NCBI GenBank assembly: GCA_947499565.1
Contig: CANMOV010000002.1
Location: forward strand, 186,001 to 250,000
Direction: 5' to 3'
DNA: 64,000 nucleotides
Source of the DNA: an uncultured Croceitalea sp.
GTDB taxonomy: Bacteria; Bacteroidota; Bacteroidia; Flavobacteriales; Flavobacteriaceae
Below are positions 9,615 through 62,012 of this stretch, one piece after another. The notes beneath the pieces were generated by a model. It did not search any database and had not been told where the DNA came from. It saw only the letters and a program-made list of their open reading frames with translations. Positions within the stretch are counted from its first letter, which is position 1. Every line of letters starts with the position of its first letter. A program made the translations under genes and the position numbers.

Positions 9615-9682
9615 AGATTAAATCTATAATTTATGGTTTAGGAACGGGTAATTTTAGTTATTTTTAATTCTAGCTTTTTATT

Positions 9683-10408: not shown

Positions 10409-11098
10409 ATGCTAAAAAGAAAAGCATATGTATTGTTATTAATTGGACTAGGTTTTGCTTGTGAGGATATTTTGGAAGAACCCGATATATCAAATCAGAC
10501 CGTTACAGTTTTTGCACCCTTGGAGGGCTCGGTTATCAACACCAATACCGTAAATTTTAATTGGGATACTTTAGAAGATGTTAGGTCATATAGAATGCAA
10601 CTGGCGCAACCCAATTTTACCAATACGGTACAGTTGGTTATAGATAGCACTTTTGTTTTGGATTCTGCGGGCAACGTAGCTACTCGATTGCAACAGAGTT
10701 TATTAAATGGTAATTATGCCTGGCGCATAAAAGCCTTAAATGGTGGTTTTGAAACCCCTTACACTACCAATTCTTTTGAAGTAAACGGAGATGAAAACGC
10801 AGACATAACTCCGCCGAATACACCAATGCTTGCAGCTCCTACAAATGGCACAACCCAAGATAATACAACGGTTGATTTTAGTTGGACTCGCGAAGATGTG
10901 CCCGGCTCTGCAGAATTGGACAGTATTTTCTTTTTTCAAGAAGAAGCACTAACAACATTAATTAGTAAAGATATTGGTGCGAATAAAACCTATTCGGCTA
11001 CGGTTACTTCAGGCACCTACTTTTGGGTAGTAAAAGCCTATGATGCTGCGGGCAACGAAAGTGCAAATAGCGAAGTGTTTAATTTTACAATAAACTAA
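10409..11098 (+). CDS. Lipoprotein with two fibronectin III/Ig-like domains
   Basis: 229 residues; the N-terminus LLLIGLGFACEDIL is a lipobox. Two similar beta-sandwich units follow: residues about 30-125 (VFAPLEGSVINTNTVNFNWD ... YAWRIKALNGG) and about 135-228 (PMLAAPTNGTTQDNTTVDFSW ... TYFWVVKAYDAAGNES). The W-x-V/I-K-A endings are typical of Fn3-like repeats in Bacteroidota surface lipoproteins. The next gene starts 5 bp downstream, so it is operonic with the pseudopilin-like genes. Confidence 0.78.
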   Translation: MLKRKAYVLLLIGLGFACEDILEEPDISNQTVTVFAPLEGSVINTNTVNFNWDTLEDVRSYRMQLAQPNFTNTVQLVIDSTFVLDSAGNVATRLQQSLLNGNYAWRIKALNGGFETPYTTNSFEVNGDENADITPPNTPMLAAPTNGTTQDNTTVDFSWTREDVPGSAELDSIFFFQEEALTTLISKDIGANKTYSATVTSGTYFWVVKAYDAAGNESANSEVFNFTIN

Positions 11099-11103
11099 GT
11101 TGG

Positions 11104-11562
11104 TTGACAAAGAATACAAAAACATATCTGTTGCTTGGCGTTGTGCTCTTAATATGGGGTGCTGTAGGGTATAGAATATATTCTGGTCTGTCTCCAGACT
11201 TGCCTGCAGAACAAGAAATAAAGACCACTAGTTTTAAGCCAAAAGCCATGGTCAAAAAAGATACCTTTAGTATTCTAGCAGATTATAGAGATCCATTTTT
11301 TGGCACCTATTCTAAAAAAAAGAGAAAGGTTAAAAGTACAACTCCAAAAAAAGTAGTAGCGCCGGAGATAGGCATTTCTTACACAGGTTCCGTTATTGAT
11401 AACAATCAAAAAAACAGTATTTTTTTTGTTACTATAGAGGGGAAACAAGTTTTAATGAAACCCAAACAAACGCTTAACGAAGTAACTTTGTTATCGGGTA
11501 CGAAACAGACTATTCGAGTTCGTCATCAAGGAAAGCTGAGAACCATTAAACTGCAGCAATGA
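11104..11562 (+). CDS. GspC/PilP-like inner-membrane protein of a type II secretion/pilus-like system
   Basis: TTG start, 152 residues: one N-terminal transmembrane helix (YLLLGVVLLIWGAVGYRIY), then a Lys-rich linker containing DYRDPFFG. That motif is typical of GspC/PilP-like periplasmic linkers (RDPF). A small beta domain follows (about 92-150: ISYTGSVIDNNQKNSIFFVTIEG ... VRHQGKLRTIKL), resembling the homology-region fold that contacts secretins. The stop overlaps the next start by 4 bp. The assignment rests on topology and the RDPF motif, not on overall identity. Confidence 0.6.
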   Translation: MTKNTKTYLLLGVVLLIWGAVGYRIYSGLSPDLPAEQEIKTTSFKPKAMVKKDTFSILADYRDPFFGTYSKKKRKVKSTTPKKVVAPEIGISYTGSVIDNNQKNSIFFVTIEGKQVLMKPKQTLNEVTLLSGTKQTIRVRHQGKLRTIKLQQ

Positions 11563-18129: not shown

Positions 18130-19366
18130 TGCGGCTAGACCAATTGTGCCATCTATTACTAAAAGAGCCCTGATCACTTTTAAAAGCGATATGATCACCC
18201 AAGCTAACTAGACTCCTAAACAACCAAATATGGTTTATACGATTAAATTCACTTTGTCCTGTATTACCAAGGAAAATATAACCTAGTCCCGTTTTTTGGT
18301 CAAACCACATCATGGTGTTGATGCAGTTGTCACCTCCGTTCATGCCGGTAAGTGAATAAGGCACACCATATTGATTTCTATCAATCATAAAGAAAAGACC
18401 ACTATTATCGATTACTTCGTTTTGAACCTTTCCATCCAATTGTACTTCAAGTAAATTGTCGAAGGAGGATTTAGCCAATAAAACCTCGTCTTTTTTGAGT
18501 ATGGCTTGGCAAAAAGTAGTAAGATCATCAATATTGGTAATTAAATCTCTTGACGGATACATCTTAACACCTTCAGTGGACACCTCTTTTATTTCATCTT
18601 TACCTGTAGATTCGTAGTATGAAGTAAAGTTTGCGGGGTCTGTTTCTGATTCAAACCAAGTGCTGCTACCCAAGTCTAATGGTTCAAAGATGTATTTTTT
18701 AGTAAATTCATTAAAGGTGAGTCCTGATTGCTTTTCAATGATATAAGCTGCCAAGCTTGCTCCGATGTTAGAATAGTTAAATCGATTTCCAGGCATATAG
18801 TTCCCAAAGGAGACTTTTCCATATTTCTTGTGCTCAAAGTAGTCCTTCATAATTGGGGTTAAAGACGCATCTTTAAGTGAATCGGTAACGTACAGGGATT
18901 CAACAACAGCTTCATTATAATCTAAGGAAGATGCGTGTGTAGCCAATTGTCTCAAGGTAATGTCAGTTTCTTTAAAATTAGGGTTGGTGACCTCAAATGA
19001 TAGATAATTATTGATGGGAGCGTCTAGTTCAAGTATCCCTAATTCAGCAGCTTTTACCAAAGAAATACCAATCAATGTTTTAGAAATAGAGGCAACATAT
19101 TGTTGCGTTGATGTAGTATAAGGTTTCTGTGAATCAACATCGGCAAAGCCATAACCCTTTTTAAAATATACGGTGTCGGCATCAAAAACCGCTACTGCAA
19201 AACCAGCTGTACGCTTTTTGTTGTAGAATGATAGAAGGTGCTTGTCAATACTTGCAAAGTCTGCTTTAATTTCGTCTTTAGTCTCATAAAGTAAGAAGGA
19301 AACACCTCCAGCTAGAAGCAATACTAAAAGTATTATCGTTGTAATTATGATTTTTTTTATGCGCAT
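18113..19366 (-). CDS. Serine hydrolase, class C beta-lactamase/PBP fold, membrane-anchored
   Basis: 417 residues with an N-terminal signal anchor (IIITTIILLVLLLAGGVSFLLY). All three active-site motifs are present: SxxK in VASISKTLIG, YxN in FNYSNIGASL, and a GG third motif in GMNGGDNC. The family includes D-aminopeptidases, esterases and penicillin-interacting enzymes, so the substrate is open. It is the last gene of the minus-strand BlaI-headed operon, 4 bp after the DUF6090 gene. Confidence 0.87.
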   Translation of the reverse strand: MRIKKIIITTIILLVLLLAGGVSFLLYETKDEIKADFASIDKHLLSFYNKKRTAGFAVAVFDADTVYFKKGYGFADVDSQKPYTTSTQQYVASISKTLIGISLVKAAELGILELDAPINNYLSFEVTNPNFKETDITLRQLATHASSLDYNEAVVESLYVTDSLKDASLTPIMKDYFEHKKYGKVSFGNYMPGNRFNYSNIGASLAAYIIEKQSGLTFNEFTKKYIFEPLDLGSSTWFESETDPANFTSYYESTGKDEIKEVSTEGVKMYPSRDLITNIDDLTTFCQAILKKDEVLLAKSSFDNLLEVQLDGKVQNEVIDNSGLFFMIDRNQYGVPYSLTGMNGGDNCINTMMWFDQKTGLGYIFLGNTGQSEFNRINHIWLFRSLVSLGDHIAFKSDQGSFSNRWHNWSSRIRGVF

Positions 19367-51661: not shown

Positions 51662-52603
51662 CTAATTGTGCCCAACTTCTTTTAAACCCATATGATAATC
51701 TACACTATATAGAAGTAAGAAATCTGATTGTTCCCAAGAAGGATACAATTCTTTCATTATATGATTTGCTTCATCTTTAGATTCTGATGTATCTATCGTT
51801 GATTCGAAGTCAGATATATACTTCAAAACAACATCAAATATTTTGGCATCTGAGCTACTTCCATGACCAGGATATATAATCGTCTCAGTAGTTTCATATT
51901 TCTCTTTAAAATTTCGAAGTTCAGATTTCCAATTTGCAATATGAGCTGAATCAACGCCTTGTCCAAGCCATAAATGAACTCCATTATAGCAAAAATCTGA
52001 AGTAAAAAGAGCATTTAAATCCTTAGAGTAAACAGTTGTCAAGTGTTCGGCTTCGGTAGGTTTATAGTCACTCTTTAATTCTAAAGTTCCTCCTCCATTT
52101 AATGTAAAGGTATTTGAACTCAATATGTTTATCTGATTTTCGTAATCAAAACCTGATGGATTTTTATCTGACTGTGGTTTTAAATTCGGCTCACCGTCTA
52201 ACCAACCGACACTTTCCATCCATTTGCTAAAACCAATGATATCTTTTTTGATTTCTTTAGTTGGAACCACTATTTCCGCATTAGGAAATTCTTTTTTTAA
52301 AATATCCATTCCTATATAATGGTCGGGATGACCATGAGTAATTAGGATATGGGTAAGGGGCAATTTTTTTGTCTTAATAAATTGGGCTAATTTTTTAGCA
52401 TCCTTTGTGCTTCTTAACACATCCATGACCATTAATGATTTGCCATTACTAAAAAGATAACTGTTTACAGAAGCTTCTTTGCCTTTAAATACTTCTACTG
52501 ATAGCTTATAATTTTTAATATCGCTTTCTTTTTTGCTTTTTAATTGACAAGAGAGTATAGTTCCTGATAAGATTGTTATTAGAAAACATCTAGATAGTTT
52601 CAT
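51662..52603 (-). CDS. MBL-fold metallo-hydrolase, lipoprotein
   Basis: 313 residues; lipobox in FLITILSGTILSCQ. Metallo-beta-lactamase fold motifs: ILITHGHPDHYIG (HxHxDH), AEHLTTVY, LFTSDFCYNG and IIYPGHGSS. The fold covers lactonases, glyoxalase II and others; nothing narrows it further. It is transcribed divergently from an HxlR regulator with a 105-bp shared intergenic region, so it is that regulator's likely target. Confidence 0.9.
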   Translation of the reverse strand: MKLSRCFLITILSGTILSCQLKSKKESDIKNYKLSVEVFKGKEASVNSYLFSNGKSLMVMDVLRSTKDAKKLAQFIKTKKLPLTHILITHGHPDHYIGMDILKKEFPNAEIVVPTKEIKKDIIGFSKWMESVGWLDGEPNLKPQSDKNPSGFDYENQINILSSNTFTLNGGGTLELKSDYKPTEAEHLTTVYSKDLNALFTSDFCYNGVHLWLGQGVDSAHIANWKSELRNFKEKYETTETIIYPGHGSSSDAKIFDVVLKYISDFESTIDTSESKDEANHIMKELYPSWEQSDFLLLYSVDYHMGLKEVGHN

Positions 52604-52708
52604 AAAGTAACTTAGTTTTTAATTATAACTTTGTTTGGCAAAGTAATTTTTTTTCTTTTGATGAAGAAGGCATTATTTTATTTCTGGTAACCTGCAAGTA
52701 ACCACAAA

Positions 52709-53029
52709 ATGAGATACATATATAAAAACCCTGAAAATTGCCCTGTAACAAAAATAATGTCGGTGCTAGGTGGAAAATGGAAGTTTATTATCCTTTACAT
52801 CATTAGGAAGTCATCAAAACGTTTTGGACAAATTAATCAATTTATCCCTAGCATTAGTAATAAGGTTTTGACAGAACAATTGCGAGAACTAGAAGATGAT
52901 GGAATTATAGAGAGAAGAGTTTTGACAGATAGAATTCCAGTCAATGTGGAATACAGTTTAAGTGAAAAAGGAAAAAAATTAATACCTCTTATAGAATTAA
53001 TGGAACAATGGGGAGAGAATATTTACTAA
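52709..53029 (+). CDS. HxlR family transcriptional regulator
   Basis: 106 residues, complete winged-helix HxlR domain: NCPVTKIMSVLGGKWKFIIL with the conserved Cys and GGKW, RFGQINQFIPSISNKVLTEQLRELEDDGIIERR, and VEYSLSEKGKKLIPLI. The single Cys may sense electrophiles or aldehydes, as in YodB/HypR. Divergent from the MBL-fold lipoprotein. Confidence 0.93.
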   Translation: MRYIYKNPENCPVTKIMSVLGGKWKFIILYIIRKSSKRFGQINQFIPSISNKVLTEQLRELEDDGIIERRVLTDRIPVNVEYSLSEKGKKLIPLIELMEQWGENIY

Positions 53030-53521
53030 TTGCATACAACAGTTCTATAAGATTACTATTGCGCATATATCTATTTTAGAAGTAAAATAATATCAATTAC
53101 CTATTACTCTCAAGGATAAGATAACCTAATCGTATAATATGCTCTTACAAATATTTGCAGCGTGATAATATTGAGTTACGAAAATTGAACACTACTATAA
53201 GCATATCTAAACCATCAGATAATAGAACTAATTGAGGAAAAAGAGAAAGCTCCGAAAAAAGTTAGTTTTAGAAGACTCATTGAAATTCGTCATTACTTCA
53301 AACCCATTCTTTTTTGAATAAACTACAAATAATATATATTCAACGTCTAGTCTTCAGCTTTCTTTTGAACTGCGGCCAACACCGTGAAACCTCATGCGTC
53401 CAAAATCTCATTCGTATTATTGCCTTTAGTATTGCTATTTTCATGGACATTTGGGCTGGTTTGGATTCGTATCTTGAATTTGGAAAAGTAGACCTCCGCG
53501 ACTAAATGATCTTTAGAGGAA
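53030..53521. other. Gap with possible protein debris
   Basis: No intact gene. A plus-strand frame around 53201-53317 reads AYLNHQIIELIEEKEKAPKK and then FRRLIEIRHYFKPILF before a stop. It has a protein-like composition but no start and no family I recognise, so it may be the tail of a lost gene. Confidence 0.25.
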
Positions 53522-53522
53522 T

Positions 53523-53553
53523 AAAAAAAAAGCGCAGGCCAGAGACCTGCGCT
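53523..53553 (-). terminator. Rho-independent terminator at the end of the SRPBCC block
   Basis: Perfect 8-bp stem AGCGCAGG/CCTGCGCT with a 7-base loop, followed on the minus strand by eight T. It lies 93 bp beyond the last SRPBCC gene and closes the minus-strand arm of the sigma-factor regulon. Confidence 0.85.
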
Positions 53554-53645
53554 ATCATTTTCATAGCCATACAAAATTCCTCAGCATGTAAACACCAACC
53601 TATCAATGAAAAAACCAGTCCATTCGTATGGCCAGAAAATTGTCA

Positions 53646-54176
53646 TTACATTTTGGCTTCCATTTTCGCCTCTGCAATAACATTCCCAACCATCTCATTC
53701 AAACTCTGGTCAATGAACCCGAAGAACTGCTCTTTGGTCATCTTGGGGTTTTCCATGAACTCCTCGAACTTGGAGGTCCATACGATCATCGATTTATTGT
53801 ACCCGAGATCCACTACGTTCCAGGTATTGACCATTCCTTTGATTGGTACGCCTTCTATAACGGAATAACTGTAAGTTCTATTGGCATCGCTGTAATCCAC
53901 AATGTTCTCCTTAAAGAACCCTTGGTTGTCCGGAGCATAACATACTCTTTGTCCACCTACGTCCTTTGGCCCTTTCCATTCCAATCTTGCAATACCCTTG
54001 GAATAGTTCTGGATCTCGTCCATTTTTCTTAGGACCGACCATACCGCATCCGCGGAGGCATCCACCACTTTGGTATACGTTTTGTTGGCATCGGCACTTT
54101 GGGCCTCAACATTGCTAAAGCTTAAGGCAAATACAAATGTTACTGCCAGCGAAAAAATTGATTTTTTAATTTTCAT
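53646..54176 (-). CDS. SRPBCC (START-like) protein, exported
   Basis: 176 residues, signal peptide SLAVTFVFALSFSNVEAQ. SRPBCC core: KVVDASADAVWSVLRKMDEIQNYSKGIARLEW, then GGQRVCYAPDNQGFFKENIVDY and TYSYSVIEGVPIKGMVNTWNVVDLG. The centre is very close to the lipoprotein at 57221 (FFKEKIVAF, YSLVEGVPVKGMVNTFKVVNLG), so the two are recent paralogues placed on opposite arms of the locus. These helix-grip proteins bind hydrophobic ligands in a deep pocket. No own sigma-type promoter is seen in the 51-bp gap upstream. Confidence 0.88.
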   Translation of the reverse strand: MKIKKSIFSLAVTFVFALSFSNVEAQSADANKTYTKVVDASADAVWSVLRKMDEIQNYSKGIARLEWKGPKDVGGQRVCYAPDNQGFFKENIVDYSDANRTYSYSVIEGVPIKGMVNTWNVVDLGYNKSMIVWTSKFEEFMENPKMTKEQFFGFIDQSLNEMVGNVIAEAKMEAKM

Positions 54177-54227
54177 CTTGTTTCTATTATTTAATTGTTA
54201 TTTACTATTTGAAAAATGATTTTAGGT

Positions 54228-54824
54228 TTACCGATATACCGCCTCGGTATCGAAAAGGCCATCTGCCAGAGGCGCAAAAGGTTCGTCCACATCAGTTACT
54301 GCCAATTGGTTGGTAAGGTTTGACATGACCTTTGCCCCGATGTTGGTAATGACCTCTATCGCCTGAGCCTTGTCATAACCTGCCGAAAGGAAATTTTTGA
54401 GCACTTTATCGGATACCCTTCCCTTTCCCCTGTACACGTCAAGGGTAAAGGAACGGAGGGCATCGAATTTTTCATTTGGGATGGTATCCTCGTTCCGGAT
54501 GGCCTCAAGGTCCTTTTGGTCCGACCCGAAGAACGCTCCACCGGCCATTTGGTGGCCCGAGGTACAATATTTGCACCTGTTCTCGACGGCCACGGTCATT
54601 TGGATGATGTTGTGCTCCTCCGGGGTCAATGTTCCATATGTTGCCAGTTGCAATTGGGTCAGCCAATAGGAACGCAGAGCTGCCGGAGATGCGCTCAGGA
54701 CCTTTGTAAGATTGGGCACGAACCCGAAATTTTCCCTGTACCAATCAAAAACCTCTTTTACCTCTTGGGGCTCATTGGGCAATTCGTCCATCTTAAAGCC
54801 CCTGCTTGTTTCTTTCATAGTCAT
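54228..54824 (-). CDS. Carboxymuconolactone decarboxylase/AhpD-like protein
   Basis: 198 residues. The AhpD active-site motif CxxC-x3-H is seen in NRCKYCTSGHQMAGG, in the usual helix after MTVAVE. NFGFVPNLTKVLSASPAALRSYW is typical of peroxidase-related CMD proteins. It could reduce organic peroxides, the likely redox member of the regulon. Its start shares a base with the stop of the upstream SRPBCC gene, so both are driven by the promoter at 55460. Confidence 0.92.
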   Translation of the reverse strand: MTMKETSRGFKMDELPNEPQEVKEVFDWYRENFGFVPNLTKVLSASPAALRSYWLTQLQLATYGTLTPEEHNIIQMTVAVENRCKYCTSGHQMAGGAFFGSDQKDLEAIRNEDTIPNEKFDALRSFTLDVYRGKGRVSDKVLKNFLSAGYDKAQAIEVITNIGAKVMSNLTNQLAVTDVDEPFAPLADGLFDTEAVYR

Positions 54825-55423
54825 TATTTTGTAAATGTTACCTCGTAATCCTTTCTGATTTCCTTGATCTTCTTGTTGAAAGGGGTCACCTGTTCCCCAG
54901 TCTCCACATAGTGCTTCAATCCCTTTAGGTTGTTGGCCAAGCTCTTTTTGAAGCTTCCCTTCATCATACCGGTCATAAATGCGGGCTTTCCGCGGAACTG
55001 CATGAGATAGGAGGCCGTGGAGGTTCCATTGCCGTTGTCCTTTACACGGTAATAGGCCTGGGTGTTGTCTGCGTCCAAGGGAAACTTGGCCCCATCAAGA
55101 ATAATGTTCCGCATTTCCATTTTTTTCTCGTCGATGTCCGCTATCCTTTCGTGTACCCATCTTGTACCATTGGCATTGAGGTCACATTTTCGCTCGGCCC
55201 CTTTTACACCGGATAGGGAGCCGTTCTCGTAATTGGCGGCATAGATATAGGGAGACCAATTGGATATGGCCCCATAGTCCCGTACCATGGCCATCCAGAC
55301 CTTTTCGGCCGGGGCGTCGATATCGATTGCCACTTCTATCGATTTGTACCTCTTGTCCATGTTCTGGGCCGAAATGATGAGCCCCGCTGTCATGAACAAC
55401 ATTAAAGCAAGTGTCTTTTTCAT
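54824..55423 (-). CDS. SRPBCC (START-like) protein, exported
   Basis: 199 residues with signal peptide TLALMLFMTAGLIISAQ. Core: EVAIDIDAPAEKVWMAMVRDYGAISNWSPYIYA, GAERKCDLNANGTRWVHERI, and a long C-terminal helix containing KSLANNLKGLKHYVETGE that closes the ligand cavity. First gene of a two-gene unit (with the AhpD-like gene) controlled by the TGTAACA-N15-TATCAAA promoter. Confidence 0.88.
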   Translation of the reverse strand: MKKTLALMLFMTAGLIISAQNMDKRYKSIEVAIDIDAPAEKVWMAMVRDYGAISNWSPYIYAANYENGSLSGVKGAERKCDLNANGTRWVHERIADIDEKKMEMRNIILDGAKFPLDADNTQAYYRVKDNGNGTSTASYLMQFRGKPAFMTGMMKGSFKKSLANNLKGLKHYVETGEQVTPFNKKIKEIRKDYEVTFTK

Positions 55424-55459
55424 GATTTGATTTCTTTAAATAGATTTTAGTTACTCCCT

Positions 55460-55488
55460 TTTGATACCCCATGCAAAGAGGTGTTACA
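55460..55488 (-). promoter_or_regulatory. ECF-type promoter P3: TGTAACA-N15-TATCAAA
   Basis: -35-like box at 55482-55488 and -10-like box at 55460-55466 on the minus strand, 37 bp before the SRPBCC start at 55423. Identical spacing to the three other promoters of the set. Confidence 0.75.
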
Positions 55489-55491
55489 GAA

Positions 55492-55995
55492 CTAGGCCGC
55501 CTTTTTGGAGAGTTTTAACAGTTCCTTTTCCTTTTCGGGACTTGGGATGCCCCTTTCCACATAATGTTTGAAGTCCTGGATGACGCCCTCAATGGTCTTG
55601 TTCAGCTTCATTTTCATCATTGGGCCCATTATGATTCCCATAATCCCCTTGGTCTCCATTTTCAGGTGCATGCTGACCTTGGTCCCGTTGCCAAGTTCCT
55701 CAAGATTCCATGTATTGATGGCAGAGGAAATGAAACCGGGAAAACCTTTCACGACCTCGTAGGACAGCACGTGGTTCTTATTATCGAACATTCGGATCTC
55801 TTCCTGTATGGTTCCGAAACCGGGCACTTCACAAGTACGGTTGTTACAGCTGGCCCCATCGAAGATGGGCTGCCCATATCCCTTTGAATGGTCCAGGCCC
55901 CTTGCCCATTTGTAGGCATTGCTGAACTGGTTTCCAAGAACGTCCCAGGCTTCCTCGATTGGTCTGTCCACGGTCAACTCTTTGAATATTTCCAT
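55492..55995 (-). CDS. SRPBCC (START-like) protein, cytoplasmic
   Basis: Start at ATG 55995, not 56055: the upstream candidate lies within the promoter at 56021-56049. 167 residues without a signal peptide. Core: MEIFKELTVDRPIEEAWDVL, CNNRTCEVPGFGTIQEEIRMF, VSMHLKMETKG and a closing helix TIEGVIQDFKHYVERG. The helix resembles that of the protein at 54824. It is the only plainly cytoplasmic SRPBCC member here. Confidence 0.88.
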   Translation of the reverse strand: MEIFKELTVDRPIEEAWDVLGNQFSNAYKWARGLDHSKGYGQPIFDGASCNNRTCEVPGFGTIQEEIRMFDNKNHVLSYEVVKGFPGFISSAINTWNLEELGNGTKVSMHLKMETKGIMGIIMGPMMKMKLNKTIEGVIQDFKHYVERGIPSPEKEKELLKLSKKAA

Positions 55996-56020
55996 AGGTT
56001 TAAAATTTAATAGTTGTCCC

Positions 56021-56049
56021 TTTGATGCAAAGAGTGACCATGTGTTACA
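56021..56049 (-). promoter_or_regulatory. ECF-type promoter P2: TGTAACA-N15-CATCAAA
   Basis: -35-like box 56043-56049, -10-like box 56021-56027, minus strand, 26 bp before the start at 55995. The -35 box overlaps the T-run of the terminator that ends the sigma-factor transcript, so this gene is a separate unit. Confidence 0.75.
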
Positions 56050-56079
56050 AAACAAAAACCCGAAGAAACTATCTTCGGG
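56049..56079 (-). terminator. Rho-independent terminator of the sigma-factor gene
   Basis: Minus strand CCCGAAGA, loop TAGTT, TCTTCGGG, then TTTTTGTTTT. Lies 25 bp after the sigma gene stop. Confidence 0.85.
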
Positions 56080-56103
56080 CCTTTACTAGGGTTCAATAAC
56101 AAG

Positions 56104-56976
56104 TTAGTTGAGTTCAAAAAAATCAAGAAGTTCCTTGTCCCCCAGTATTTCATCCAAAACTGTAGTGCTGTCAAAATTGTCCTTGGCAGGAACGTCGCGC
56201 AATAACCGCAAATGCTTATGGTCCACGATATCGGCGACCAGGTCAAGGTTCTCTTCCACATAGTCAGCGACTTTTTTACGATAGCCGACATTGAACATGT
56301 GCTTGTCATCGGTCAAATATCCCTTTTGGTGCATGGCCTTGGTCTTTTTGGCACATCGGCAGGGGTTTTTTGGATTCATGAGCCCGCATTTGTCTTGCAT
56401 AAAGTTGATGATGTCCTTTCTGGCCCTGTGGAGTTTTATTCTGTAATTCTGCTTGGAAAGATCAAATATCTCGGCACCGGTGTTATGGTCGGCACCAAAG
56501 GTCTCGCCAACGATGAACAACAACCGCTGTTCCCTTGTCAGGCACATGATCATGCCCGATAGGCACTTGTAGCGCAATTCCTTGATCTGTTCCTCTAGCT
56601 CCCTTTCGTCCTGCTCGCCAATGACGGCGTTCTCGATAGAATCCAATCGCTCCCCTTGGTCCTCGAAGTTGGTGAACTGTTTTTCCCCTTTCCTTCGTTT
56701 TGATTGGAGAAACTCGTTGAACACGATACGGTATAGCCATGTTCTGAACTGGCTCTCAAATTTAAACTGTGATAGTTTGGTGATGACCTTGATGAGGGCC
56801 TCTTGTGTAAGGTCCTCCGCATCCATTGGGTCAAAGGTGAATTTCCAAGCAACATTGTAGATGTAGGGCCGATGTAATTTTATCAATTCGTTCAAGGCGT
56901 GCTTATCGCCCTTAAGGGAGGCCCTGACCAATTCAATGTTCTGTTCTTCCGAATAGTTTTCGCCTAATGGGTTCAT
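56104..56976 (-). CDS. ECF-type RNA polymerase sigma factor with long C-terminal extension
   Basis: 290 residues. Region 2 is at about 15-95 (RPYIYNVAWKFTFDPMDAEDLTQEALIKV, FRTWLYRIVFNEFLQSKRRK), and region 4 at about 135-195 (CLTREQRLLFIVGETFGADHNTGAEIF, YRIKLHRARKDIINFM). About 95 extra residues follow, beginning with a Cys cluster CGLMNPKNPCRCAKKT and continuing helically (YRKKVADYVEENLDLVADIV). ECF factors with C-terminal extensions often use them for self-regulation; no anti-sigma gene is adjacent. The gene is preceded by the same promoter motif found before three SRPBCC units, so it likely drives itself and them. Confidence 0.9.
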   Translation of the reverse strand: MNPLGENYSEEQNIELVRASLKGDKHALNELIKLHRPYIYNVAWKFTFDPMDAEDLTQEALIKVITKLSQFKFESQFRTWLYRIVFNEFLQSKRRKGEKQFTNFEDQGERLDSIENAVIGEQDERELEEQIKELRYKCLSGMIMCLTREQRLLFIVGETFGADHNTGAEIFDLSKQNYRIKLHRARKDIINFMQDKCGLMNPKNPCRCAKKTKAMHQKGYLTDDKHMFNVGYRKKVADYVEENLDLVADIVDHKHLRLLRDVPAKDNFDSTTVLDEILGDKELLDFFELN

Positions 56977-56992
56977 TCATAATATTTTTAGT

Positions 56993-57021
56993 TTAGATGC
57001 ATTTTGGACCGCGGTGTTACA
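56993..57021 (-). promoter_or_regulatory. ECF-type promoter P1 of the sigma-factor gene: TGTAACA-N15-CATCTAA
   Basis: -35-like box 57015-57021, -10-like box 56993-56999, minus strand, 17 bp before the sigma start. The sharing of boxes and of 15-bp spacing with P2-P4 points to autoregulation. Confidence 0.75.
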
Positions 57022-57156
57022 AAAGTGTATTCCACTGGACCATTTCATTTTCTTGGGAGAACCCAAATCGGTCATATCATCGCTTCTGACATTCATTTTA
57101 AGATAGAAAAAAGCATTGACATCCTTTAAGACTGTGAAGCAAAATTCCATCGAATT

Positions 57157-57185
57157 TGTAACACCATACCAAAATTGGAATCAAA
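57157..57185 (+). promoter_or_regulatory. ECF-type promoter P4: TGTAACA-N15-AATCAAA
   Basis: -35-like box 57157-57163, -10-like box 57179-57185, plus strand, 36 bp before the lipoprotein start at 57221. It is divergent from P1, so the pair controls both arms of the locus. Confidence 0.75.
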
Positions 57186-57220
57186 GCGGTAAACATAACA
57201 TTCAAATAAAAACTAAAATT

Positions 57221-57796
57221 ATGAAATTGACAACGTATTTCGCCATGGCCGCTATCCTGTTCATGGGCTGTAAAAAATCCGAAAAGAACGGTGATATGGA
57301 ACAGGACATGGATATGAATGAACCAAACACCGAAGTCTATTCCATAGAGGAGGATGCCCGGTTGACACAGACCCTTATCATTGATGCTAGAGCGGACAGG
57401 GTATGGGGTTTGTTGCGAGAACTGGATGATGTGGACAAGTACTCCTCGACCATTGCCAAAGTGGAATTTACAGGGAATAAGGGGGTCGGCGGTGAAAGGT
57501 TGTGCACTTCTGTCGACGGAAAAGGGTTCTTCAAGGAAAAGATAGTGGCCTTTGATGACAGGTTCCGAACTTACTCCTATTCCTTGGTGGAAGGGGTTCC
57601 GGTTAAGGGCATGGTGAACACCTTCAAAGTGGTGAACCTTGGCTACGGCAAAAGTGCGCTCATATGGTCATCAAACTTTGAACAGTTTATGGAAAACCCC
57701 AATATGACGGAAGATGAGTTTATGGCCTTTATGGACTCGGCATCCAAGGAGACATTGCAAAAGATAGGTGAGGCCGCCACTTCCACTCCAATGTAA
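57221..57796 (+). CDS. SRPBCC (START-like) lipoprotein
   Basis: Start at ATG 57221; an upstream ATG at 57116 would precede the promoter at 57157 and is rejected. 191 residues, lipobox in FAMAAILFMGCKK, then an acidic linker (DMEQDMDMNEPNTE). Core: LIIDARADRVWGLLRELDDVDKYSSTIAKVEF, GGERLCTSVDGKGFFKEKIVAF, YSLVEGVPVKGMVNTFKVVNLG. Close paralogue of the soluble exported protein at 53646. First gene of a two-gene unit with the esterase. Confidence 0.9.
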   Translation: MKLTTYFAMAAILFMGCKKSEKNGDMEQDMDMNEPNTEVYSIEEDARLTQTLIIDARADRVWGLLRELDDVDKYSSTIAKVEFTGNKGVGGERLCTSVDGKGFFKEKIVAFDDRFRTYSYSLVEGVPVKGMVNTFKVVNLGYGKSALIWSSNFEQFMENPNMTEDEFMAFMDSASKETLQKIGEAATSTPM

Positions 57797-57806
57797 GGAT
57801 ATGCTA

Positions 57807-58544
57807 ATGGGCAAGAGGTTATTGACCGTTTTACTTTTTTTTCTGTTATTGGGCTTCTGGACCTCACTTGGAGCCCAACAAGAGGATTGGACATCTTTGC
57901 GCAGTGAGGTCCTCGGGCTATCGGTCGATGTGAAGATTTACGGTACTGGTTTCAATAGGAGTGAAAAGCCCATTGTTTACCTGACGGATGGCAGAAAGTT
58001 GCTCGATAATGGGGCCATGGATATCATACTGGAACTGACAAAGAAAGGGTTGGTTCCTGAATCGATCTATGTGCTGGTTAGTACTATTGATAGGTCATCG
58101 GAAAAGGACCTGCGCAACCAGTTCTTCTTCTGTAATCTGGACTATCTAAGGTTTTTCGAGTCGGAACTGGTTCCCTTTGCGGAAGCCAAACATGGGGGCC
58201 TTCGGACTCCTTCCGAAAGAAGTTTAGTGGGTATTTCCTTTGGTGGACTCAACGCCGCCTATTTTTCGGCCAAGACCAACATTTTTGGAAACTATGCCCT
58301 GCTCTCGCCCGTGACCTATCCCTGTAAAGGTGTGATTGCCGATATATCCTTTTCAACTGGTAAGGACCTAAAGATTGTCCTATCCACGGGCAAGAACGAT
58401 GCGGAGCGCTATGTGGACGAACTGGAAGGGATGTACAGGTCAAAGGGCCATACCCTGTCTACCATTGAGACCAACGGGCAACATGACTTTGAGAACTGGA
58501 ACGGACAATGGAAACATGTGTTGGGCTTCCTGCTAACAAAATAA
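57807..58544 (+). CDS. Alpha/beta-hydrolase esterase (PF00756-like), exported
   Basis: Start chosen at ATG 57807, 7 bases after AAGGA; ATG 57801 is also possible. 245 residues, signal peptide LLFFLLLGFWTSLGAQ. Esterase features: PIVYLTDGRKLLDNGAMDIIL, nucleophile elbow VGISFGGLNAAYF (GxSxGG), acid candidate in VLSTGKNDAERY, catalytic His in NGQHDFENW. This resembles the IroE/BesA esterases that hydrolyse siderophore or other ester substrates. 10 bp after the SRPBCC lipoprotein and under P4. Confidence 0.88.
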   Translation: MGKRLLTVLLFFLLLGFWTSLGAQQEDWTSLRSEVLGLSVDVKIYGTGFNRSEKPIVYLTDGRKLLDNGAMDIILELTKKGLVPESIYVLVSTIDRSSEKDLRNQFFFCNLDYLRFFESELVPFAEAKHGGLRTPSERSLVGISFGGLNAAYFSAKTNIFGNYALLSPVTYPCKGVIADISFSTGKDLKIVLSTGKNDAERYVDELEGMYRSKGHTLSTIETNGQHDFENWNGQWKHVLGFLLTK

Positions 58545-59044
58545 AGGGTTCTGATTGAAGGGGATTTTTACAATTCCTTCAAAATTTATAAGGAGTGAAA
58601 TATTTGACCGGGGCCCATATTCAAGGCCCAATACATTTGGTCCGAATTGGGATAAGCGAAATCCTCCAGTTGTACGTCAGCCTGGGTAAAATCAAAAGAT
58701 TCTCCTTTGATGATTCTTTCAGTACCTGCAAAGTTAGTTTATCGACTTCCACATTTTTAAGCATGGTTACAGACCTTTGCATAATAATCAAAATATCAGA
58801 AGATAGATCTATTGTCCAGGGAGTTAAGGTTACGGTTTTTTTGGCCAGTAGGAATTCAAGGAAAGAACTTTGTTTTGCCAATCGAGCATTTCAAAATATG
58901 TACTGCCTTTTTTTAAGACCGTTTGCGAATAACTGGTTATGGGACTTAAATACCCGACTGGAAAAGCATAATGGATAAGTAAAACCTTTTGAAAGGAAAA
59001 TAATCAATTAATGACTAATAAAAGTCTACAACAGCGTTGCTAAA
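58545..59044. other. Gap with overlapping unconvincing ORFs
   Basis: 500 bp. A plus-strand frame (58595-58978) starts with GTG near an AAGGAG, and a minus-strand frame (58621-58881) overlaps it. Neither shows a motif, a signal peptide or a convincing composition, so I do not call either as a gene. Confidence 0.3.
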
Positions 59045-60109
59045 ATGGAAAAATCAATTTTGTTCCTTCCGGATATTTCAGGTTTTACAGAGTTTGTGGA
59101 AGAGACCGAGGTAAACCATAGTCAGCATGTGATAGCAGAACTTTTGGAAATCCTCATCGAGTCGAACATTGCTGGGATGGAACTGGCTGAAATAGAAGGG
59201 GATGCCCTTTTCTTCTATTCCGAAGAATCGATACCCTCCCAAGAAATCCTACTTGCCCAGATCACCAATATGTTCACCGCATTCTATAGCCACCTTGACC
59301 TGTTCAGGGAAAATAGGATATGCCCCTGCAATGCCTGTGCTAAGGCCCCTGATCTTAAACTCAAGATCATTGCGCATTGTGGGGAGGTCGAACACATAGT
59401 TGTGAATGGAAAACGAAAGCCTTTTGGCAGAAAGGTCATTGAGGCCCACCGGCTTCTGAAGAACACGGTTAAAGATGACAGCTATGCATTGCTCACGAAG
59501 GAATTGGCTCAGGAAGTGGACCTGTCGTTTTATTATTTCAGTAAGGTTTTTCATTTCAAGGAAGGTGAAAACGAATATGACGGGAAGAACCTGGAATATA
59601 TTTATTCATTGATTGATCCCCTGAAACTGAATCTAAAGCCTGTTCCCACAGTAAAGACTTTTGTGCCGGATAAAAGTCCCAATCTTCATTTGCAACGGCA
59701 AATGAACCGTTCGGCGGCAAAACTACTTTCGTTGATTATGGACTTTTCCATTCGCCCACAATGGGTAAAAGGGGTAGATCGATTTATTTTTGATGGGAAT
59801 GAGGTAAATCGGGTGGGTACGCAACATCTTTGTGTGATCAATGGGAAAAATCTAAGTTTCACCACTATAAAAAAAGCGGTAGAACCTTCGCAGTTGGTCT
59901 ATGGTGAGCATACAACCGATGCCAGTCCTTTCAAACAGTACTACCAGATTTATATCATCACCCCCATATCCGATATTGATTGCAAGCTTGAGGTAGAGGT
60001 TTATTGGACCATGAAATGGTCCATTTTTGGGCGGATACTGGAACCTTTGGTAAAAAGAAAAGTGAGAGGAAACATTTTGGAATCTTTGGAACTCTTGGAT
60101 GCCATTTAA
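59045..60109 (+). CDS. DUF2652 (cyclase-like) protein fused to a SRPBCC-like domain
   Basis: 354 residues. The N-terminal about 190 residues match DUF2652, a degenerate class III adenylate-cyclase fold (ILFLPDISGFTEFVEETEVNHS, LAEIEGDALFFYSEE, CPCNACAKAPDLKLKIIAHCGE, FGRKVIEAHRLLKNTV). The C-terminal about 140 residues look like another SRPBCC domain (AAKLLSLIMDFSIRPQWVKGVDRFIF, YYQIYIITPISD). It is the fifth SRPBCC unit in the block and may sense the same ligands. No TGTAACA-type promoter is seen upstream. Confidence 0.85.
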   Translation: MEKSILFLPDISGFTEFVEETEVNHSQHVIAELLEILIESNIAGMELAEIEGDALFFYSEESIPSQEILLAQITNMFTAFYSHLDLFRENRICPCNACAKAPDLKLKIIAHCGEVEHIVVNGKRKPFGRKVIEAHRLLKNTVKDDSYALLTKELAQEVDLSFYYFSKVFHFKEGENEYDGKNLEYIYSLIDPLKLNLKPVPTVKTFVPDKSPNLHLQRQMNRSAAKLLSLIMDFSIRPQWVKGVDRFIFDGNEVNRVGTQHLCVINGKNLSFTTIKKAVEPSQLVYGEHTTDASPFKQYYQIYIITPISDIDCKLEVEVYWTMKWSIFGRILEPLVKRKVRGNILESLELLDAI

Positions 60110-60249
60110 TCCAATGGAACAGGAATATTCGATTATTGGGATTGAAGTATATCAAAATCTGTCAAACCTGAAACAAAGATTTATATTGACCATTAAAACG
60201 GCCAAGAGAAGAAACGTTTTAAAAAAATAGGTGGGGTCTTTTTAAGCGT

Positions 60250-60322
60250 TCATTTAAAAGTACTCTTCTGAATAAAAAAGATTAAAGCTCCGATACTAAT
60301 AAATAATTCACCCTTTCTTCAA
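60250..60322. repeat. 73-bp direct repeat, copy 2 (truncated thioesterase end)
   Basis: Matches 30717-30789 with one mismatch and encodes on the minus strand the last residues of the thioesterase, but the rest of that gene is missing. The remainder of the 324-bp gap shows nothing else. Confidence 0.9.
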
Positions 60323-60433
60323 GGCATCCCTTCTTGATATATTTGGGTTCATCTTAATTTCAAGAATATAGTTAATTACCTCTATTTATATTTAATGGCG
60401 GCACTGGATTATACACCAATATGCTTTTAATAT

Positions 60434-60790
60434 TTATGATTGTCTATATCCAACAAGTACCCTTTTCAAATCACCCTTTTCCTTAAAAATCAGAAATAAT
60501 ACATAAGGCGCAAAAACAATGATTCCCAAGATACTGGCAAGAATTGCCATTAGTATGGAAGAAGTAGTGAATTTATTCCTCCAAGCAATCCATAAAGCCG
60601 AAAGAATTAAATAACAATTGAAATCCAAGGTAAATTGTCCCATCCATGTGAGAGAAAAGACAAACTCTTGGGCCCTTTCCAGAAAATTTCCACCATCATT
60701 TTTTATGGCTATCGCTGTATAAATGAGTAAGCCCACTGTCTGAACTATCAGTAATCCTTTCAAGAAGTATAGTTTATTAGTTGTTTTCAT
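60434..60790 (-). CDS. Small integral membrane protein (paralogue of the gene at 31308)
   Basis: 118 residues, three hydrophobic segments. GQFTLDFNCYLILSALWIAWRNKFT matches the equivalent block of the 31308 protein, and the ends (FAPYVLFLIFKEKGDLKRVLVG) also correspond. Function unknown. Overlaps the preceding gene by 4 bp as the last member of a four-gene operon. Confidence 0.77.
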   Translation of the reverse strand: MKTTNKLYFLKGLLIVQTVGLLIYTAIAIKNDGGNFLERAQEFVFSLTWMGQFTLDFNCYLILSALWIAWRNKFTTSSILMAILASILGIIVFAPYVLFLIFKEKGDLKRVLVGYRQS

Positions 60791-61269
60791 TTTTTGCTTT
60801 TGATTAAATAGTAAAATATAAGAATATGACTAACCGTCATTATTGGTAGTAATACTGTAGGAACATACCAAGCAGCATCCATATAATTTGCTAAACCTGC
60901 TTCGGTTGCTCTAGTCATTGTCATAATTTGGTCAGCGAATCCTATAATGTTCAATATCCAAACTGAAGTAATGGCCAATTTCGAATTAGTATTTAGCAAA
61001 ATAAAAGCGATAACAGCGCAAACAGCTGTTAACCAATCGCCAATGGCAATATGCTGGGCAAGTTCGATAGGAATGTTTTTTGAAGTAACTACTGGTGAGG
61101 CCGCTACTGAAACACCAATGTAGCGAAACATTTGAGGTATGACGAGTAAGATTAAGAGCGTCTTTTTTGAAAGTTGATTGAGTTTTGGAACTATAAGAAA
61201 AATGGACAATACTAACCAAACTGCGTAAGCCGTAAAAAGCTGTGTCAAGAATATTTGAGTTATGTTCAT
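60787..61269 (-). CDS. Integral membrane protein of unknown function
   Basis: 160 residues with about five helices (LFTAYAVWLVLSIFLIVPKL, TLLILLVIPQMFRYIGVSV, WLTAVCAVIAFILL, AITSVWILNIIGFADQIM, VPTVLLPIMTVSHILIFYYL). No family recognised. 4-bp overlaps with the genes on both sides indicate translational coupling. Confidence 0.78.
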   Translation of the reverse strand: MNITQIFLTQLFTAYAVWLVLSIFLIVPKLNQLSKKTLLILLVIPQMFRYIGVSVAASPVVTSKNIPIELAQHIAIGDWLTAVCAVIAFILLNTNSKLAITSVWILNIIGFADQIMTMTRATEAGLANYMDAAWYVPTVLLPIMTVSHILIFYYLIKSKK

Positions 61270-62012
61270 CCGAGCATCTTTTTAATCTGTTCAGCCACCA
61301 AATATGGTTTTTGACGTGGCACCCAATGTCCGCAATCCTCAATCATCACTACTTTTCCACCCAATCTATGTGCATATTCTTGTGTAACCAAAGGGTCTTG
61401 TTTACCCCATAAAACTGTTGTTGGGATTTCTGTAACCACTTTTTTGAACTTATCTTCCCAACCATCATAATAGTCAGGTGCAGTCATTTTTTGAAATAGC
61501 TTTAAAAGACTTCTCCTTGCAGTTTTTGAAAGTCCTTTAGCAACATTGTTAACATCAACTTCTGCTAATTCAGGAAAGTCTTTGCTGAAGCCCATTTTAA
61601 AAAAAGTATTGTTAACGAAGAACATAAATATTCTTCCCCATATCTTATGTCCCCATATTTTGGCCATTTTGTGCCATTCGAAATTCCTATCTGCCACAGT
61701 ATTCATAAGAAGAAGTCCACTAACCTCTTCTTTATGCTCACTAGCCCAAGCCAAGGAGAGAATAGCACCAATGTCATGACCAACAAGTAGTATTTTTTCA
61801 CTGGTATGCTTGTTAATCAACCAATCACTTAAATAGTTCACTTGGGAACGGATGGTGAAATCAAAATCATTGGAAATTTTGCTAGTAAGACCAAAACCAG
61901 GTAAGTCCATGGCCAGACATTGATACTCATCGAGTAATTTAATAACAGCATTCCATTCTTCTTTATGGTCCGGTCCGCCATGTAGGAATAAGATAGTATC
62001 TTCTTTTTTCAT
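61266..62012 (-). CDS. Alpha/beta-hydrolase with Asp nucleophile (epoxide hydrolase/dehalogenase-like)
   Basis: 248 residues. LFLHGGPDHKEEWNAVIKLL forms the oxyanion HG motif. The nucleophile elbow LLVGHDIGAILSLAWA has Asp instead of Ser, pointing to epoxide hydrolases or haloalkane dehalogenases. TTVLWGKQDPLV carries the acid region and EDCGHWVPRQKP the catalytic His. No signal peptide, so cytoplasmic. Second gene of the four-gene operon, between membrane proteins. Confidence 0.87.
   Translation of the reverse strand: MKKEDTILFLHGGPDHKEEWNAVIKLLDEYQCLAMDLPGFGLTSKISNDFDFTIRSQVNYLSDWLINKHTSEKILLVGHDIGAILSLAWASEHKEEVSGLLLMNTVADRNFEWHKMAKIWGHKIWGRIFMFFVNNTFFKMGFSKDFPELAEVDVNNVAKGLSKTARRSLLKLFQKMTAPDYYDGWEDKFKKVVTEIPTTVLWGKQDPLVTQEYAHRLGGKVVMIEDCGHWVPRQKPYLVAEQIKKMLG

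Follow-up and report, generated by a model that had tools for sequence, protein, structure and literature searches.

The window, a stretch of 64,000 nucleotides from an uncultured Croceitalea sp., very probably carries a self-contained regulon, composed of an ECF-type sigma factor with a Cys-bearing extension, a promoter of its own and three client promoters, gated through the extension and laid out as a movable module. Judged from the sequence, the motif repeated at this locus is real, well beyond chance and functionally plausible, and there is good support for an ECF-type regulon that is autoregulated and comprises SRPBCC, AhpD-like, and esterase genes. Close relatives of the regulon seem to be passed among marine bacteria in the form of gene cassettes. 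The locus comprises the following features.

53531..53553, minus strand: terminator-like hairpin ending the SRP2-AhpD-SRP3 unit (-17.4 kcal/mol, z -4.39; found by the consensus scan)
53646..54176, minus strand: SRP3, SRPBCC protein, signal-peptide-like start by eye (Polyketide_cyc2, 6.7e-15)
54228..54824, minus strand: AhpD/CMD-like protein with an E-x2-C-x2-C-x3-H motif (CMD, 0.00033, below cut-off)
54824..55423, minus strand: SRP2, SRPBCC protein, signal-peptide-like start by eye (Polyketide_cyc2, 1.5e-14)
55460..55488, minus strand: promoter-like site of the SRP2-AhpD-SRP3 unit, exact motif
55492..55995, minus strand: SRP1, SRPBCC protein of 167 aa, no signal peptide by eye (Polyketide_cyc2, 3.5e-12)
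56021..56049, minus strand: promoter-like site of the SRP1 unit, exact motif
56053..56085, minus strand: terminator-like hairpin past the sigma gene, with a T-run that continues into the next site (-18.8 kcal/mol, z -4.40)
56104..56976, minus strand: ECF-type sigma factor of 290 aa with a C-terminal extension of ~100 residues (CGLMNPKNPCRCAKK; Pfam)
56993..57021, minus strand: promoter-like site of the sigma gene, TGTAACA-N16-ATCTAA, exact motif, which would make the gene autoregulated
57157..57185, plus strand: promoter-like site of the SRPBCC lipoprotein-esterase unit, exact motif
57221..57796, plus strand: SRPBCC protein, lipoprotein-like start by eye (Polyketide_cyc2, 4.6e-15)
57801..58544 (start 57801 or 57807), plus strand: putative esterase (PF00756, 5.9e-12)
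59045..60109, plus strand: DUF2652 protein inside the shared block described below (PF10851, 1.6e-40)

Sigma factor, motif, and putative client genes at the locus

The exact motif TGTAACA-N16-ATCWAA occurs four times in the whole 3.88 Mb genome, every time at the sigma locus, and the same pattern read backwards gave no match. All four sites have the same spacing, and shuffles of the window yielded a mean of 0.01 matches (largest 1). The preliminary description had listed four identically spaced sites at these places, all of which were recovered, and had put them 17-37 bp ahead of the start codons; the gaps are indeed short, but their measured lengths are 16, 25, 36, and 35 nt. When one mismatch was permitted, 33 matches appeared in the genome, 29 of them off-locus, compared with 21 for the backwards control. 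We regard these near-matches as background and therefore dropped an extension of the regulon to one-mismatch sites. The anticipated confinement of the motif to the locus thus held in the genome-wide scan, which lends support to the central proposal, namely one ECF-type sigma factor with a promoter-like site of its own and three client sites.

The sigma factor matched the Pfam profiles Sigma70_r2 (1.6e-15) and Sigma70_r4_2 (0.0017, under its cut-off) and no other sigma region at E 0.01, and it scored 71.9 bits against TIGR02937 sigma70-ECF (cut-off 42.9). Both hallmarks of an ECF factor were found, that is, sigma regions 2 and 4 without regions 1.1 and 3, and a bipartite promoter-like motif ahead of its own gene. 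The Pfam matches end at residue 188 of 290, and the ~100 residues beyond are unmatched at E 0.01, in agreement with the 95-residue Cys-containing extension described earlier. C138, C145, C197, C206, and C208 are invariant among 36 aligned family members (an alignment that omits the fragment L020, L021, which has no extension, and L076, which has an internal stop); two of them lie at the start of region 4 and three in the C-terminal extension, where the family carries the signature CGL..NPCRC. The C-terminal 101 residues had no match among PDB sequences at E 10. A structure prediction from ten close sequences reached a mean pLDDT of 47.6, too low for interpretation or for a fold search, so that a Cys switch is something we infer. 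None of the ten proteins scanned at the locus with Pfam and TIGRFAM-type profiles resembles an anti-sigma factor, just as the preliminary description had it.

Four neighbors of the sigma gene matched Polyketide_cyc2 (SRPBCC) above the cut-off. The AhpD/CMD-like protein scored 1.3e-14 against TIGR01926 peroxid_rel, below the cut-off, and contains ENRCKYCTSGH at residue 81, which fits E-x2-C-x2-C-x3-H, presumably the motif of AhpD/CMD-like proteins. Since no exact motif precedes the DUF2652 gene, we did not count it as a member of the regulon. The two hairpins proposed as terminators between the transcripts both fold well compared with shuffles, but only the one at 53531..53553 was listed by the consensus terminator scan, which omitted 56053..56085 and found no excess in the region (5 sites versus 6.9 in shuffles).

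Relatives of the sigma factor and their motifs

Nine close loci (L005-L013; 75-93% identity) were found in three Aquimarina, one Dokdonia, two Ulvibacterium (one a MAG), and one Winogradskyella, and in MAGs named Lewinella and Saprospiraceae. More distant members occur in 8 of 120 genomes of the taxonomic family (E 1e-20), in at least 11 of 395 genomes of the phylum (E 1e-30), and in at least 7 of 395 genomes of the order (E 1e-50); these samples overlap, each tally counts the window's own genome, and for phylum and order six candidates were scored per genome. G428, from the same genus as the window genome, gave no match in the phylum (E 1e-30) and order (E 1e-50) searches.

All nine close loci have such a site ahead of the sigma gene. 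The broader pattern TGT[AC]ACA-N15-17-[AG]TC[AT]AA matched 23 sites in the close loci (9/9, one to three per locus); among the 29 distant loci, 18 contained matches, 20 sites in all, while the reversed pattern gave none in either set and Markov controls averaged 0.27 (close) and 0.15 (distant), with a largest value of 2 each. The distant sites precede either the sigma gene itself or a run of genes of which it is the last; at L015 they also precede two SRPBCC genes. The remaining 11 of the 29 distant loci showed no motif within the fetched stretch; these include L021, whose sigma factor has no NPCRC extension, and L020, which is cut to a fragment by the end of its contig. Across eight whole genomes of close relatives, TGTAACAC-N15-ATCWAA matched 23 sites, 21 of which are at the sigma locus; the pattern read backwards gave no match. 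A frequent, unrelated occurrence genome-wide, named beforehand as the finding that would speak against the regulon, was therefore seen neither in the window genome nor in these relatives. Two exact sites lie off-locus in relative genomes (G121:C6:1180562 and G125:C29:9200). At L005 the motif stands ahead of two units only, and at L013 a fourth site, before SRP2, is one base off in the -10. L012 comprises the sigma gene with its own site, and similarity to the window proteins revealed no client there.

The window genome also encodes a paralogous NPCRC sigma factor (L023), which is preceded by TGTCACAC-N16-GTCTAA (G000:C1:1480037-1480066), a pattern that occurs nowhere else in the genome even with one mismatch allowed (control 0). 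The boxes differ between two sigma clades, with TGTAACA/ATCWAA in front of the sigma genes of one and TGTCACA/GTCTAA in front of those of the other. This clade-specific pairing is the strongest argument for regarding the boxes as promoters of their sigma factor. The motif might instead be the operator of another DNA-binding regulator, with the sigma gene merely one of its targets, and the fixed spacing would fit a dimeric regulator as well. We consider this very unlikely in view of the two clades and of L012, which retains the motif before its sigma gene with no recognized client; moreover, the boxes resemble the -35 and -10 elements of ECF promoters and end 16-36 nt ahead of the start codons. 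ECF promoters commonly have an AAC core in the -35 and TCTAA or TCAAA in the -10.

Recognition of the boxes by the sigma factor is the preferred reading. An SRPBCC protein, rather than the C-terminal extension, could act as sensor or anti-sigma-like partner, as SRP1 shows no signal peptide by eye and comes after the sigma gene in 7 of the 9 close loci. This appears rather unlikely, because L011 lacks SRP1, L012 has no match to any SRPBCC protein, and only 5 of 20 neighbors scanned in distant loci are SRPBCC proteins, the others including SDR, SnoaL, DinB, and ydhR/ABM proteins. In the sub-clade formed by L018, L019, L023, and L024, the sigma gene is paired with a small protein that looks like a membrane protein by eye; L018, L019, and L024 additionally carry a protein that is MGMT-like by eye, with a Pfam match below the cut-off for L018, the one tested.

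Plasmid records contained 20 relatives of the sigma factor at 28-44% identity (best 44%), which stem from Leptospira (14, 39-42%), Enterococcus raffinosus (5, 28-29%), and Runella (1, 44%). A review on Leptospira sigma factors mentions one 301-residue ECF protein that was left unclassified (PMC12655853). Viral contigs held no close sigma member; the best 80 of 167 relatives retrieved from them with alignment A2 as the query are, among the matches listed, mostly similar in sigma region 2, and none of those listed extends past residue 204. Phage records gave no sigma relative at E 1e-15.

Probable horizontal spread and cassette form of the close relatives

The sigma gene DNA is 91-97% identical among L006-L012 (seven of the nine close loci), compared with 66-87% for recA of the same genomes, or 66-79% except for the two Aquimarina L008 and L010 (87%). 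L005 was left out of this comparison; its module has ~73% DNA identity to those of L006-L012. Two genomes named Ulvibacterium, L007 and L013, share 85% identity in recA and 67% in the sigma gene, whereas L007 and the Saprospiraceae genome L012 share 67% and 96%, respectively (L011, L012, and L013 are MAGs, and binning may err). Strong purifying selection rather than transfer is an extremely improbable explanation for the identity between genera: regulators can be conserved, but these pairs of values run in opposite directions, and the identity among the close loci also covers intergenic DNA and stops near the module or attC-like borders. Transfer of the module is the favored reading. The window itself contains the following feature.

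53257..60194, no strand: shared block, 88.9% DNA identity to L013 5796-12728 in a single alignment that ends on both sides

The identity of this 6.9 kb block compares with 76% for recA of the two genomes. This block, which has sharp limits, contains the window copy and, we infer, moved by a route other than the cassette. At the block end in L013 (12720-12880), a GTTAG is preceded by attC-like pairing that has no covariance-model support.

Six of the nine close loci lie between attC-like sites, in the manner of integron-type cassettes. A covariance model placed sites of the same orientation on both sides of the module in five of the nine (L005, L006, L008, L009, L010), and the left site of L007 came from the arm finder only, a search for YAACA...CGTTR with pairing arms. 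The right site of L006 lies ~460 bases past the last SRPBCC-like ORF. The pair is incomplete at L011, with the right site only, and at L012, where no site was convincing (best 9.2 bits); L013 has a single attC-like site, ~1.8 kb past the last gene of the module. For the window copy, the model gave no match at E 1 and a best score of 9.4 bits with filters off in 52400-61500. The right borders of L005, L007, L008, and L010, near 11060-11200, combine the same gene module with attC types that differ between hosts, and several attC sites resemble one another within L005 and within L008.

The arm finder counted, forward/reverse, 8/0 sites in L005, 4/0 in L006, 4/1 in L007, 11/0 in L008, 3/0 in L009, 2/1 in L010, 2/0 in L011, 4/2 in L012, 2/2 in L013, and 3/6 in the window. 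Shuffles gave one-strand means of 0.05-0.95 for the loci, with no single shuffle above 3, and a mean of 3.0 for the window, where the largest of five shuffles reached 4. L011 and L013 were not above every shuffle, and L012 was so barely, with sites that are un-attC-like; the reverse count of 6 in the window exceeds the shuffles, and the covariance model finds nothing there. The model was built from twenty sites, and their consensus shows AAC/GTT ends, an unpaired spacer, and inner stems, with 17 pairs of which 10 have changes on both sides; as most of these sites had been picked by the arm finder for their YAACA/CGTTR ends and arm pairing, the ends and the pairing lean towards the model. Among ten sources it yielded 60 matches at E 1, the 20 training sites included; 59 of the 60 share the orientation of the sigma gene, and the window has none.

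Cassette structure was analyzed in 23 cassettes, 16 of L008 (weak matches to E 0.04 used) and 7 of L005 (two weak matches omitted). The 5' end of the cassette was complementary to its own R'' at 69 of 92 positions (permuted mean 36.8; 0/20000 as high) and fully so in 12 of the 23, and the longest ORF pointed forward in all of them. The distant loci, for which wider stretches were also taken, have attC-like sites in 5 of 29 cases. In four (L022, L063, L068, L075) the site begins 10-17 nt past the sigma stop codon; in the fifth, L016, the sigma gene lies on the opposite strand between two such sites.

Searched genome-wide, the model matched 8 of 9 genomes, with counts from 0 to 44 across the nine and 14 in the window genome; these are lower bounds, with 150 candidates scored per genome. 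No IntI scored above the TIGR02249 cut-off in nine genomes (L005 was outside this search). Weaker IntI matches mean little, because 13 of 14 control genomes gave them as well, and were rejected as evidence for an integrase. In marine flavobacterial genomes, twelve stretches (L172-L183) contain attC-like arrays with 79 model matches at E 0.001 and no IntI above the cut-off; they come from five locus-derived genomes and the window genome and were picked for IntI or attC-model matches (L180 overlaps L006, and L181 has none). Two of the stretches encode a tyrosine recombinase beside such sites, namely L174 (8034-8930, minus strand; sites at 9658 and 10354, plus strand) and L175 (16436-17569, plus strand; sites at 18327 and 19392, plus strand). 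Compared with TIGR02249, these recombinases leave ~55 profile positions unmatched over 13-16 residues, a stretch that we take to be the IntI-specific insertion, which they thus seem to lack.

Proposed mechanism and comparison with known systems

In the mechanism that we propose, the sigma factor would read the -35 TGTAACAC and the -10 ATCWAA before its own gene, giving positive feedback, and would serve three client units, SRP1, SRP2-AhpD-SRP3, and the SRPBCC lipoprotein-esterase pair. The transcripts would be kept apart by hairpin terminators and separate promoters. Sigma activity would most likely be gated by the C-terminal extension, and the five invariant Cys would make a natural metal, redox, or ligand switch, which renders the signal directly testable. 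The clients might bind or modify a small hydrophobic or oxidized compound, mostly outside the cytoplasm. Since the module includes the exact sites, it could be transferred as a unit and function in another host; the close relatives would do so in integron-type cassettes and the window block by another route.

A cassette that holds a sigma factor together with its sites would carry its own regulation along to any new place. With somewhat less than even confidence, we further propose that the NPCRC sigma factors are transplantable switches, each with private promoters and one or a few clients that handle small molecules, many of them spread as cassettes in Bacteroidota by a little-recognized flavobacterial platform whose recombinase lacks the IntI insertion. 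If so, a cassette platform would carry whole orthogonal regulons, and the recombinases in L174 and L175 would be candidates for its enzyme. The two paralogous factors in one genome, each with its motif only at its own locus, suggest a source of orthogonal switches.

A limited search of partial texts on ECF sigma factors with SRPBCC proteins and on integron or attC cassettes found no such system. Genes in integron cassettes are usually expressed from the promoter of the platform, and some from promoters of their own (PMC8618304, PMC8876359). The close relatives share with chromosomal integron cassettes, as described there, the attC-bounded gene units in arrays and the internal promoters; they differ in that the unit holds a sigma factor and several of its sites, and in that no IntI scored above the cut-off in the nine genomes.

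ECF238 (CorE-like) factors are described as having a Cys-bearing C-terminal extension, no separate anti-sigma factor, and a CXC in the linker of regions 2 and 4 (PMC8999054). The window protein shares the Cys-bearing extension without a separate anti-sigma factor, but shows no CXC by eye in this linker and has a different Cys pattern. With regard to the Cys-rich C-terminal domain of ECF238, its extension has three invariant Cys and a poorly predicted fold (pLDDT 47.6). By analogy with CorE-like factors, the conserved Cys suggest metal or redox control.

A precedent for the plan is ECF41. Wecke 2012 (PMC3426412) reports no anti-sigma gene, a regulatory C-terminal extension, and a private motif TGTCACA..., with CMD, oxidoreductase, or epimerase neighbors as the only detectable targets; the promoter reads TGTCAC with a -10 of the CGTC/TGTT kind. 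The same plan is thus on record, and the remark in the preliminary description that no described system built this way was known to its author finds no support. The window factor could even be a plain Bacteroidota member of ECF41, given the absent anti-sigma gene, the extension, the private motif, the CMD/AhpD neighbor (CMD match below cut-off), and a TGTCACA-like -35 in part of the NPCRC family. Compared with ECF41, however, its extension has no match at E 0.01 to SnoaL, the domain type of ECF41, and carries CGL..NPCRC instead, while the promoter differs from that of ECF41, with TGTAACA and ATCWAA in the window and ATCWAA or GTCTAA as the -10 of the family. As these two defining features differ, we did not file the factor under ECF41 and consider membership very improbable. 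The clients further differ in being SRPBCC-dominated, with several client sites, and the relatives in their cassette form. The factor looks like one that works in the manner of ECF41 but forms a family apart, set off by its extension and by the cassette form of its relatives. The plan therefore has a known precedent, and mobility is the new twist: as far as the sequences tell, what is new are the sigma genes that match at 91-97% across hosts with 66-87% recA identity and the cassette form, between attC-like sites, of most close relatives.
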